Origin: Spirochaetota bacterium
GTDB lineage: Bacteria; Spirochaetota; UBA4802; UBA5550
Length of the DNA stretch: 38,283 nucleotides
Assembly: GCA_022709405.1 (NCBI GenBank)
Contig: JAKLIV010000015.1
Location: 1 to 38,283, forward strand
Direction of reading: 5' to 3'
Shown: piece after piece, positions 14,625 through 19,277 of the stretch
Numbering within the stretch: position 1 is the stretch's first letter
Layout of the letters: every line of letters begins with the position of its first letter
Position numbers and translations under genes: made by a program
The notes under the pieces: model-generated
Seen by the model: the letters and a program-made list of their open reading frames with translations, nothing else
The model's database searches: none
Told to the model about the DNA's origin: nothing

Positions 14625-15029
14625 TTACGCAACAGTCCAATTTTCAATTTTTAAATTCTTTATATTTTTGAATTCCCTGGCATTGTTCGTCACGAGAATC
14701 CCGTTCCAGGCGATTACCGTGGCCGCTATGATGTAATCATTCGGTCCTATTATGGTCCCTTTGATCTCCATCGCGGCCCTGATTGTCGAATATGCAATAG
14801 AGCAGTCGTCATCGAATGGAACGATTTCGAATGGCGCGAGAAATTTGCCGATGCTGGACAGATTTTTCTTTCTCAGCCGGCTCTTCTCCGCTCCGTAAAG
14901 AAGCTCGGCTTTTACGATGGATGGGATTTTTATGTTGTTCGGGTTCGTGTTCCGGATGTTTTCCAATACCGAAGGGTGCGACCCCTTGAGAAAATAGACG
15001 CATATATTCGTATCCAGAAAATACGTCAT
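14625..15029 (-). CDS. vapC: VapC-family PIN-domain toxin
   Basis: PIN-domain toxins are Mg-dependent ribonucleases, typically cleaving initiator tRNA or the sarcin-ricin loop. This 134-residue protein has the first acidic residue in YFLDTN (D6) and Glu in VKAELLYGAEK (residue about 42). A third Asp lies in the GPNDYIIAATV segment. The usual fourth position in LVTxN reads LVTNNAREF. Size and order of motifs are typical. It overlaps the antitoxin gene by 4 nt (ATGA), as in most vapBC operons. The region is visibly more AT-rich than its neighbours, consistent with acquisition by transfer. Confidence 0.93.
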   Translation of the reverse strand: MTYFLDTNICVYFLKGSHPSVLENIRNTNPNNIKIPSIVKAELLYGAEKSRLRKKNLSSIGKFLAPFEIVPFDDDCSIAYSTIRAAMEIKGTIIGPNDYIIAATVIAWNGILVTNNAREFKNIKNLKIENWTVA

Positions 15030-15253
15030 AACCGTTCCCTTGGGGAATCATGCTTGAAAGACTGAGAATCGATTTTAAATGATTTATCGGAGATCGATCC
15101 GAACAGATCAAAATATCCCTGAGGATAGTCTTCCTGTATCGCTTTTTTTATTTTCCTGCCGACCCATCTGGAAATGGACATCTTTTCCCTGCTTGCGGCC
15201 TTCTCCACCTTTGACAGGGTTTCTTTATCGATATATAACGATATCTGCGGCAT
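15026..15253 (-). CDS. vapB: VapB-type ribbon-helix-helix antitoxin
   Basis: This 75-residue antitoxin has an N-terminal ribbon-helix-helix (PQISLYIDKETLSKVEKAA, then MSISRWVGRKIKKAI) for DNA binding. Its charged, flexible C-terminus (residues about 48-75) should wrap the toxin. AGGAGG lies about 8 nt before the start. It is the first gene of the vapBC pair and presumably represses its own promoter, where direct repeats are visible. Confidence 0.88.
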   Translation of the reverse strand: MPQISLYIDKETLSKVEKAASREKMSISRWVGRKIKKAIQEDYPQGYFDLFGSISDKSFKIDSQSFKHDSPRERL

Positions 15254-16496: not shown

Positions 16497-16511
16497 AGGG
16501 GCTTCGCCCCT
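16497..16511. repeat. Compact hairpin at the end of the doc gene
   Basis: AGGGGC (16497-16502), loop TTC, GCCCCT (16506-16511) forms a tight hairpin that begins within the doc stop codon. No T-run follows on the minus strand (a C-rich run follows instead), so it is at best a weak terminator or a 3'-end stabiliser. The rest of the gap to the lipoprotein gene (16349-16496) shows no gene. Confidence 0.6.
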
Positions 16512-16906
16512 CATTCAACAGCCAGTTTTTTCAGGACTCCGGCGATATATTTTTTGTCACCCCTGCCGGACGCTACTTTCATCATCATTGGATATAATTC
16601 TTCATGGGGATCGCGAATTTCAACTCCATTGAAATCAAGAAACAACAGGCCTGCGACCAGCGCGACACGTTTATTCCCATCAATAAAGGGATGATTCTGG
16701 CATATATGGTATATATACGCCGCCGCCATATCGAACAACCCGTCATGGAGATAGCGGCCGTCAAAAGAGGCGAGAGGCATCGACAGGGCCGAACTCAAAA
16801 GAGAAATATCGCGAATGCCGTATTCTCCGCCGTATAATCCGATCTGATTATTGTGGATTTCGATCAGCTCCGCGAGCGACAGGAATTCTATTTCCCGTTT
16901 TTTCAT
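16511..16906 (-). CDS. doc: Doc-type (Fic fold) toxin
   Basis: Doc toxins phosphorylate EF-Tu and halt translation. This 131-residue protein has the Fic/Doc catalytic motif HPFIDGNKRVAL (residues about 77-88), with the catalytic His and the nucleotide-binding GNK. The preceding helix AAAYIYHICQ is typical. Its N-terminus (FLSLAELIEIHNNQI) matches death-on-curing proteins. Length and motif position agree with Doc rather than with larger AMPylating Fic enzymes. It overlaps the upstream antitoxin gene by 4 nt (ATGA). The partner is an AbrB-type protein rather than the classical Phd. Confidence 0.92.
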   Translation of the reverse strand: MKKREIEFLSLAELIEIHNNQIGLYGGEYGIRDISLLSSALSMPLASFDGRYLHDGLFDMAAAYIYHICQNHPFIDGNKRVALVAGLLFLDFNGVEIRDPHEELYPMMMKVASGRGDKKYIAGVLKKLAVE

Positions 16907-17130
16907 TCGGCGAGCTTTTCGAGGGTCGATTTGTGCCTGGTGTTGATCTTATCGAGGGACTTGCCGAGCCGGTTCAACCTGTTCCCTGATTTTACCGGAG
17001 AAATGATTATGTTTTTCCCGTCGGTCGTCATCTCAAGCGGCGTGCCGCTATCGATGTTAAGCAGTTCCATTATGGGCTTGTCGATTACTATGGCCGAGCT
17101 ATTTCCGTGCCGGATCAGTTTTTTTATCAT
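16903..17130 (-). CDS. AbrB/MazE-type antitoxin of the Doc toxin
   Basis: This 75-residue protein has an N-terminal swapped-hairpin AbrB-type DNA-binding domain: MIKKLIRHGNSSAIVIDKPI, then MELLNIDSGTPLEMTTDGKNIII. A basic, helical tail (NRLNRLGKSLDKINTRHKST) probably neutralises Doc. AbrB-type antitoxins paired with Doc are known but less usual than Phd. GAGGAGG lies about 9 nt before the start. It is the first gene of the pair and presumably represses the promoter at 17155-17183. Confidence 0.85.
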   Translation of the reverse strand: MIKKLIRHGNSSAIVIDKPIMELLNIDSGTPLEMTTDGKNIIISPVKSGNRLNRLGKSLDKINTRHKSTLEKLAE

Positions 17131-18293: not shown

Positions 18294-18881
18294 ATGGCGA
18301 CAGCACAATTGAACCCCATCATAACATCACTCAGCGGCAGCGTGGGCGGGATGGTCATCTACACCAGATTCGGCAGGACCGTGATGCGGATATGGATAAA
18401 GCCTCCCAATCCGCGCACCGATAAGCAGCAGTCAAACCGCGCGCGCTTTGCGCAGGCAATGGCCGCATGGCAGGGCCTCGATGGGAACCAGAAGAAAGCA
18501 TATAACGCAAAGGCCCGCAGGCTCGGGATGACGGGTCACAATTTATTTATCTCGCGGTACATGAAAGACCACACGGATGGTAATTCATGCGTGCCCCCTG
18601 TGGGGGGCAGGGGGCAGCTTAAGCGCATGAAGGGGCGGATACAAGAAAGCTGCGCCGGGGACACGGGGCAACAGGATTCCACCCCCTTCTCCCTTCGGGA
18701 GAAGGGGGCCGGGGGGATGAGGGCATCTTCCCTTCACCCGGCCTTCCGATCCGTCACCGCTCCGTCTCACGTTCTATCCCGGCCGGGAGCATTGTCTCCT
18801 GATGACCTCACTCCCTTTCCCCCTCTCCCGGAGGGAGAGGGGGTCGTGTCATATATGTCATTCATATTACGGGATTATTGA
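18294..18881 (+). CDS. Small uncharacterised protein with a repeat-derived C-terminal extension
   Basis: AGGAGG (about 5 nt before the ATG) marks this gene clearly. Residues 1 to about 93 look like a complete small protein. They read SLSGSVGGMVIYTRFGRTVMR, then PPNPRTDKQQSNRARFAQAM, AWQGLDGNQKKAYNAKA and TGHNLFISRYMK. I know relatives of about 95 residues with this order; it resembles DUF6266-like proteins, function unknown. After that the frame runs through GC-rich palindromes at 18593, 18682 and 18819, giving low-complexity text (STPFSLREKGAGGMR, PFPPLPEGEG). I infer that the original stop was lost when repeats inserted. The stop at 18881 abuts the DUF559 gene. Confidence 0.65.
   Translation: MATAQLNPIITSLSGSVGGMVIYTRFGRTVMRIWIKPPNPRTDKQQSNRARFAQAMAAWQGLDGNQKKAYNAKARRLGMTGHNLFISRYMKDHTDGNSCVPPVGGRGQLKRMKGRIQESCAGDTGQQDSTPFSLREKGAGGMRASSLHPAFRSVTAPSHVLSRPGALSPDDLTPFPPLPEGEGVVSYMSFILRDY
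18593..18615. repeat. GC-rich palindrome inside the small-protein gene
   Basis: GCCCCCTG (18593-18600) and CAGGGGGC (18608-18615) pair around a G-rich 7-nt loop. It lies at the point where the conserved part of the overlapping protein ends. Confidence 0.7.
18682..18735 (+). repeat. Hairpin-CC-G-rich repeat, copy R2
   Basis: A perfect 12-bp stem, CCCCCTTCTCCC (18682-18693) with GGGAGAAGGGGG (18697-18708), is followed by CC, GGGGGG, ATGAGGG and CATCTTCCCTT. The tail and stem match the copy at 19226-19277 in the same orientation. The differences are paired single-base insertions in the stem, the loop and a few tail bases. Confidence 0.9.
18801..18843 (-). repeat. Hairpin-CC-G-rich repeat, inverted copy R3 (left end of DUF559 unit)
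   Basis: This is an opposite-orientation copy. The 11-bp stem is CCCCCTCTCCC (18819-18829) with GGGAGAGGGGG (18833-18843), and the tail lies on its left. Compared with the reverse complement of 19226-19268 it is identical at 37 of 43 positions. Together the two copies form imperfect terminal inverted repeats around the DUF559 gene. Confidence 0.88.
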
Positions 18882-18892
18882 ACGAAAACATA

Positions 18893-19261
18893 ATGCATCA
18901 CATTAAAAAACTATTCACCCGGCGACTCAGGAAAGAATCCACTCCTGAAGAAGTTACGGTATGGGCTGCTCTTCGAAACAGGAACTTCAGAGGCTTGAAG
19001 TTCAGGCGCCAGCATGTGATTGAAGGATTTGTCGTGGATTTCTACTGCCATGAATTGCGGCTTGCCATAGAAATCGACGGCCCAGTGCACCGGAGACAAA
19101 ATGACTATGATGAACTTCGACAATATCTTATCGAAGGGAAAAATATCAGATTTATACGGGTATCAAATGCAGAAATTGCCAGAGACTTTCAGATATTGCT
19201 TCATCAAATAGAAACATTTCTACCTCCCCCTCTCCCTGCGGGAGAGGGGGCCGGGGGGTGA
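18893..19261 (+). CDS. DUF559 endonuclease-like protein
   Basis: This is a 122-residue protein of the DUF559 family, which has a Vsr/restriction-endonuclease-like fold; its cellular substrate is not established. Recognisable parts are RRLRKESTPEEVTVWAALR, the core GLKFRRQHVIEGFVVDFYC, then LAIEIDGPVH. D49, E60 and D62 are candidate metal-binding residues. The C-terminal PPPLPAGEGAGG and the stop codon are encoded by the flanking repeat R4. The start at 18893 is used; an in-frame TTG at 18878 overlaps the previous stop and is an alternative. The whole gene lies inside a 468-bp unit bounded by inverted repeats (18801-19268), an arrangement that suggests a small mobile or repeat-associated element. 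Confidence 0.88.
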   Translation: MHHIKKLFTRRLRKESTPEEVTVWAALRNRNFRGLKFRRQHVIEGFVVDFYCHELRLAIEIDGPVHRRQNDYDELRQYLIEGKNIRFIRVSNAEIARDFQILLHQIETFLPPPLPAGEGAGG

Positions 19262-19277
19262 GGGCATCTTGCCTTAT
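19226..19277 (+). repeat. Hairpin-CC-G-rich repeat, copy R4 (right end of DUF559 unit)
   Basis: The 11-bp stem CCCCCTCTCCC (19226-19236) and GGGAGAGGGGG (19240-19250) is followed by CC, GGGGGG, TGAGGG and CATCTTGCCTT. The TGA is the stop codon of the DUF559 gene. The tail also reaches the stop codon of the converging DUF2459 gene at 19274-19276. Confidence 0.9.

Follow-up and report, generated by a model that had tools for sequence, protein, structure and literature searches.

A 468-bp unit at positions 18801-19268 of a 38,283-nucleotide stretch of Spirochaetota DNA (contig JAKLIV010000015.1 of assembly GCA_022709405.1; the whole stretch is hereafter called the window) packages a DUF559 nuclease gene between inverted, hairpin-forming ends. 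We consider it probable, at roughly 60%, that this unit is one copy of a widespread DUF559-carrying palindromic element that spreads by homing-like copying. Since the same package occurs in distant bacteria, and sometimes lies in frame within genes that are without it in close relatives, it is likely to be a mobile element, of a kind apparently undescribed. A first-pass annotation of the window, made from the letters of the DNA, had proposed a DUF559 gene enclosed by inverted repeats, the right one of which encodes the end and stop codon of the protein, and our analysis confirmed both proposals. The features of the region are as follows.

18801..19268, 468 bp: the whole unit, a DUF559 gene between inverted 43-bp ends
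18801..18843, plus strand: left end, with the outward head GATGACCTCACTCCCTTT at 18801-18818 and then an 11-bp hairpin at 18819-18843
18878..19261, plus strand: DUF559 gene with a Vsr-like fold, found by Pfam and as an open reading frame (ORF), starting with TTG at 18878 or ATG at 18893
19226..19268, minus strand: right end, the inverted copy of the left end, with its hairpin at 19226-19250 and its head at 19251-19268
18682..18740, minus strand: third palindrome of the same family, with hairpin and head and without a nuclease gene of its own
18294..18881, plus strand: upstream ORF (MATAQLNP...), host context

When one arm is inverted, the two ends are identical at 37 of 43 positions. Both present a head (GATGxCCTCAC..., with the core CCTCAC) outward and a C-rich hairpin toward the gene, and each arm folds into a single 11-bp stem with a 3-nt loop (-13.2 kcal/mol for the left and -13.0 kcal/mol for the right), a fold that shuffled sequences equalled or bettered in 1/200 cases for the left hairpin and 7/200 for the right. 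The final 11 residues of the DUF559 protein (PPLPAGEGAGG) and its stop are encoded within the right arm, the stop being the TGA in GGTGAGG. Inverted repeats were scored as the best inverted match between the 300 bp to the left and the 300 bp to the right of a gene, with a threshold of 14; the window's unit scores 28.0, and a score of 14 was reached at 1/328 random positions from the same set of loci (the phylum set described below), so the inverted repeat is above chance. The third palindrome, which the first-pass annotation had missed, lies in the 3' portion of the upstream ORF, whose frame runs through it and through the left end of the unit.

The ORF at 18878-19261 matches DUF559 (PF04480) in Pfam with an E value of 1.9e-28, and a Pfam scan found no second domain in the protein. 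A structure model and fold matches give DUF559 a Vsr fold, which it has in common with the Vsr mismatch endonuclease. Vsr nicks DNA beside the T:G mismatches of a methylated motif, and we know of no mobile palindromic ends among its features. The catalytic domain of DUF559 resembles that of the EDxHD homing endonuclease I-Bth0305I in both fold and sequence. Residues D49, E60, D62, H66 and D73 (numbered from the ATG) are invariant in an alignment of homologues, and these conserved acidic and histidine residues appear to correspond to the EDxHD motif (so named in PMC3943268), an assignment that is our own. One earlier report places a DUF559 gene in the EDxHD family (PMC9403480), and another describes VsrA, a DUF559 protein of Caulobacter, which was studied as a repair enzyme and linked to cytosine methylation (PMC12907096).

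The flanking of DUF559 genes by inverted copies more often than control genes, which the first-pass annotation had put forward for checking, was found in two sets that overlap by at least four loci (L115-L118). The phylum set comprised 198 Spirochaetota genomes, with DUF559 present in 40 of them and 83 matches, of which 79 remained after four places at contig edges were dropped; the named-record set comprised the best 80 of 317 loci from multiple phyla. The threshold was reached at 52/79 DUF559 genes of the phylum set, compared with 1/162 ORFs away from DUF559 (6/267 when ORFs adjacent to units were kept) and 32/395 left and right pairs taken from different genomes. For the named set, 52/80 genes reached it with a 300-nt core, compared with 9/373 control ORFs (16/471 with near ORFs included); the full tblastn match as core gave only 23/80 because that match covers the right palindrome. 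An expression describing the C-rich hairpin was matched on at least one side of 73/80 named-set genes and on both sides of 45/80 (ORF controls, 19/373 and 2/373), and at 24/79 and 9/79 phylum-set genes, respectively (ORF controls, 4/162 and 0/162); DUF559 genes of the phylum set are also flanked by palindromes other than this C-rich type. Apart from two loci, record titles assign the named set to ten phylum-level groups, with the hairpin on at least one side in 10/10 groups and on both sides in 9/10; none of the five Spirochaetota rows in the named sample matched the expression on both sides.

Palindromes of the DUF559 type also exist without a gene, either singly or as inverted doublets. At least three copies of the pattern GGAGAGGG-N(0-12)-GGTGAGG were present in 19/40 DUF559-bearing genomes versus 10/158 others (Fisher p 5e-9, without phylogenetic correction). 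Palindrome-like C-terminal peptides such as PLPLGEG were picked up by a loose expression in 19 of the 120 homologous proteins listed out of 947. DUF559 genes on cyanobacterial plasmids (L196, L199 and L200) lie near genes for DUF1156, DUF499 or PglX-type methylases, a defence-like context.

At 13 of 163 loci (the two sets pooled, including their overlap) a longer open frame encloses the unit, with host sequence before and after it. Nine of these 13 hosts were recognised by Pfam, as type I, type IIG and other DNA methylases, an ISP-type restriction enzyme, MetH (a methionine synthase) at L180 and MnmE (a GTPase of tRNA modification) at L168; the hosts at L037, L175, L191 and L192 were judged by eye from their translations. 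The Pfam model of the MnmE helical domain spans the insert (residues 125-615), and that of MetH falls in the interval from query residue 691 to 883, which corresponds to 654 to 662 in the solved chain 8ssc_A. Scans detected no intron RNA around the insert in six sources and no intein domain in 11 proteins. The structure predicted for insert-bearing MnmE had low confidence (pLDDT 61.8) and was set aside. In addition to the DUF559 unit, several more palindrome-like peptides, for example LTPNPLSKxERGPGGE, are present in the host proteins at L175, L180 and L181, and a single gene can therefore receive more than one insertion. The insert-bearing metH of L180 is preceded by an S-adenosylmethionine riboswitch (L180:3093-3249), and in three Bacteroidota genomes an amidohydrolase-family protein carries DUF559 as an in-frame N-terminal fusion (L146 and L152, with L157 assigned by eye).

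Close relatives differ in what they hold at the mnmE and metH sites. In Runella zeae (G207), mnmE carries an in-frame insert of 550 bp arranged as doublet, DUF559 and doublet; the Runella doublets end in AACCTCACC/GGTGAGGTT or near variants. MnmE was matched in 12/13 Runella genomes and contains DUF559 in four of them (G207, G214, G217 and G218). The MnmE of G220, 97% identical over residues 1-339, holds a doublet only, of about 79 bp, which consists of the AACCTCACC head, a hairpin, a spacer, a second hairpin and the inverted head. A degenerate doublet is present in G209 and short head remnants in G210, G211 and G216, and nothing is recognisable at the site in G212, G213 and G215; the Runella mnmE sites read (11/12) have an open frame throughout. 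A wider set was drawn from the best 120 MnmE proteins listed from the protein database. After 16/121 were dropped because the flanking motifs were not found, 105 could be sorted: 32 are full, 10 have the palindrome only and 63 are without the insert, the last class including head remnants. On the tree of the host proteins, DUF559 presence must have changed 19 times or more, and for 12 of these changes starred branches of a quick tree leave no alternative; protein P0132 is 99% identical to R. zeae MnmE in its host part, yet contains the palindrome only. Inserts in mnmE alleles that are about 99% identical in the host part differ by 10-19%, which suggests replacement after the host alleles had split; we do not rely on this, because short contigs are the source of two of the three alleles, and all three stay together, weakly, in the insert tree. 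Similarly, metH was matched in 52/61 genomes of its family, and among the 29 of 30 fetched loci that cover the site, 11 are full, 2 palindrome-only and 16 without the insert; the metH product of G222 is 92% identical over residues 3-693 and has no insert. The variable presence foreseen in the first-pass annotation thus holds for these two sites but could not be extended to the window's own locus, and in the DUF559 family the repeats are neither evenly spread nor confined to fixed loci. Its further suggestion of a minimal mobile unit needs refinement, in that the repeats are REP-like units that also occur without the gene, and conserved genes can harbour the element in frame.

The source genome (4.38 Mb in 301 contigs) contains two further DUF559 genes, likewise absent from the first-pass annotation, one with the same palindrome pair and the other flanked by a different palindrome, CTCCCCCTTGCCAAGGGGGAG. 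A DNA query with the right end gave 20 matches in this genome (weakest E 3.3), some of which are both strands of one palindrome. Those away from DUF559 include four matches that each lie at the 3' end of a paralogue of the upstream ORF, and two solitary copies; among the matches inspected, L018 is coding-sequence background. The upstream ORF (18294-18881) matched no Pfam or NCBIfam family; it belongs to a multicopy family with four paralogues in the source genome, at 60-75% identity, with related palindromes at their 3' ends (L013-L016). Two toxin-antitoxin-like pairs are encoded on the minus strand of the window at 14625-15253 and 16511-17130, one consisting of a PIN-domain protein and a small partner (with a weak ribbon-helix-helix match, below cut-off), the other of a Fic/Doc protein and a MazE-type antitoxin.

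Several observations weigh against a homing-like DUF559 element. The inverted-repeat score is below threshold at 27/79 DUF559 genes of the phylum set and 28/80 of the named set, and 17/40 DUF559 genomes hold zero copies of the GGAGAGGG-N(0-12)-GGTGAGG pattern. Conversely, at least five copies occur in 8/158 genomes without detected DUF559 (for example 23 in G095 and 18 in G176), two of these eight being GC-rich genomes in which the reversed pattern matches too. Y1_Tnp genes (PF01797), the type of the REP-associated tyrosine transposases (RAYTs) of repetitive extragenic palindromes (REPs), are present in 24/27 genomes examined. Counting changes on the MnmE tree does not distinguish gains from losses, and the insert tree is compatible with shared descent of the R. 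zeae-group inserts. Target-site duplication is not readable, since the empty alleles are too diverged, although the inverted ends of the unit are present. At the window locus no empty site was demonstrated among relatives, which are too distant: a DUF559 match lies within 1.5 kb of the neighbouring DUF2459 gene in 0/5 of them, and their DUF2459 proteins are only 31-46% identical.

The abundance of Y1_Tnp genes, and the genomes that hold palindromes without detected DUF559, are what would be expected if the palindromes were ordinary REPs, or their doublets (REPINs), moved by RAYT (Y1 HUH) transposases, with DUF559 as a passenger prone to landing in them; PMC3733652 also reports REPs within coding genes. 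As a control we fetched 40 of 107 Y1_Tnp matches. Inverted repeats scoring at least 14 flank 17/40 of these genes and have other sequences, and palindromes of the DUF559 type were found on either flank of 0/40; in eleven of the same genomes, 25/30 DUF559 genes reach a score of 14. It is the palindrome, and not the inverted repeat itself, that is special to DUF559. With two DUF559 genes and 17 copies of the pattern, G214 moreover lacks any Y1_Tnp match at E 1e-5. Spread driven by RAYTs is weakened by these results and we regard it as distinctly unlikely, whereas the analogy drawn in the first-pass annotation, that of a repeat-associated nuclease gene comparable to REP/RAYT, gains from the enrichment of palindromes at DUF559 genes relative to both ORF and RAYT controls. 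Several Spirochaetota RAYT-type genes are themselves flanked by palindromes with a GGTTTAAACC-like core (L280, L283-L285, L287 and L289).

Two other explanations leave RAYTs aside. The unit could be a minimal transposon in which the DUF559 protein acts as a transposase-like nuclease, cutting the element's ends and placing it at new sites with no need of homology, but site-specific homing better accounts for the repeated occupation of one mnmE site across a bacterial family and for the doublet-only alleles at that site. Besides DUF559 the protein contains no further domain, and no target duplication was seen in alleles that are poorly suited to reading one. We therefore hold a transposon to be unlikely. 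Alternatively, DUF559 might be a host Vsr-like repair or restriction enzyme beside or fused to host genes, with the palindromes serving as terminators or being neutral repeats, as could be argued from the tie of Caulobacter VsrA to cytosine methylation (PMC12907096), from the many in-frame hosts that are DNA methylases, where fusion to a nuclease is plausible, and from one terminator-like match overlapping the right end and head (19255-19275). Fusions to MnmE and MetH would make no sense for such an enzyme, its presence flips among congeners and palindromes without the gene occur at both the mnmE and metH sites, leaving this explanation very unlikely. Plain terminators were rejected, as no T-run follows either hairpin (18819-18843 and 19226-19250) and the palindromes also lie inside open frames.

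Because its nearest functional relative is a homing endonuclease, we favour copying by repair over transposition for the DUF559 element, and we infer that its nuclease drives the movement and cuts the palindromes, as well as the direction of change. In this picture a break made by the predicted Vsr/EDxHD-type nuclease, either in its own palindromes or at an empty site, would be repaired from a filled copy, and the element would thereby be copied in; the palindromes would be the target and also supply the homology arms. Sites with a doublet alone may be substrates or leftovers. Inserts would persist in tolerant places where the frame is kept, so that no splicing would be needed.

The DUF559 element appears to work like REPIN/RAYT systems and like homing endonuclease genes, yet differs from each in a defining feature. 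With REPs or REPINs and their RAYTs (REPtrons), as described in PMC3116915 and PMC3733652, it shares repeats made of a head and a hairpin, inverted doublets, a single repeat-flanked gene and gene-less copies. REPtrons, however, encode a Y1 HUH transposase, whereas the gene here is a PD-(D/E)XK/Vsr-type nuclease and Y1_Tnp genes are separate; their heads are GTAG or CGTC rather than CCTCAC-like, and full DUF559 units, unlike REPtrons, occur inside genes. EDxHD homing endonucleases such as I-Bth0305I resemble DUF559 in catalytic fold and sequence and likewise turn up sporadically at one fixed position of a conserved gene, but the DUF559 copies scanned are without intron or intein, have palindromes at both ends, and encode proteins of about 110-125 amino acids with no extra DNA-binding domain. 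A ShiLan-type insertion in a phage methylase is likewise in frame, non-splicing and host to a hidden endonuclease; it differs in being found in phages and in carrying an out-of-frame HNH nuclease, and its abstract mentions no palindromic ends (PMC11855218). Rickettsia palindromic elements and intragenic REPs also place palindromes in frame in conserved genes but have other sequences and are described in PMC3733652 as short and without a nuclease gene; gene-less copies of the DUF559 type do fit that description. Repeated segments with a transposase and DUF559 are recombination hot spots in another bacterium, according to PMC12308824. Among the papers listed, our literature searches yielded no description of an association between DUF559 and palindromes, and as coverage of subscription papers was poor, its absence is unproven.

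The chances are about even, in our estimate, that these units form a new class of mobile element, in which a REPIN-like palindrome with its own homing-type nuclease, distributed over ten phylum-level groups, invades conserved reading frames and survives unspliced since the insert, palindromes and nuclease alike, is translated and tolerated, the gene-less palindromes being its non-autonomous offspring. For palindromic repeats without a link to RAYTs, DUF559 offers a candidate enzyme of a further large family, and a cultured species is available for its study (Runella zeae DSM 19591). If correct, this would explain why PLPLGEG- and RRGxGG-like peptides recur in proteins that are otherwise unrelated, and would add to introns, inteins and the hidden HNH insertion of phages a further way for a homing-type nuclease to live in conserved genes.
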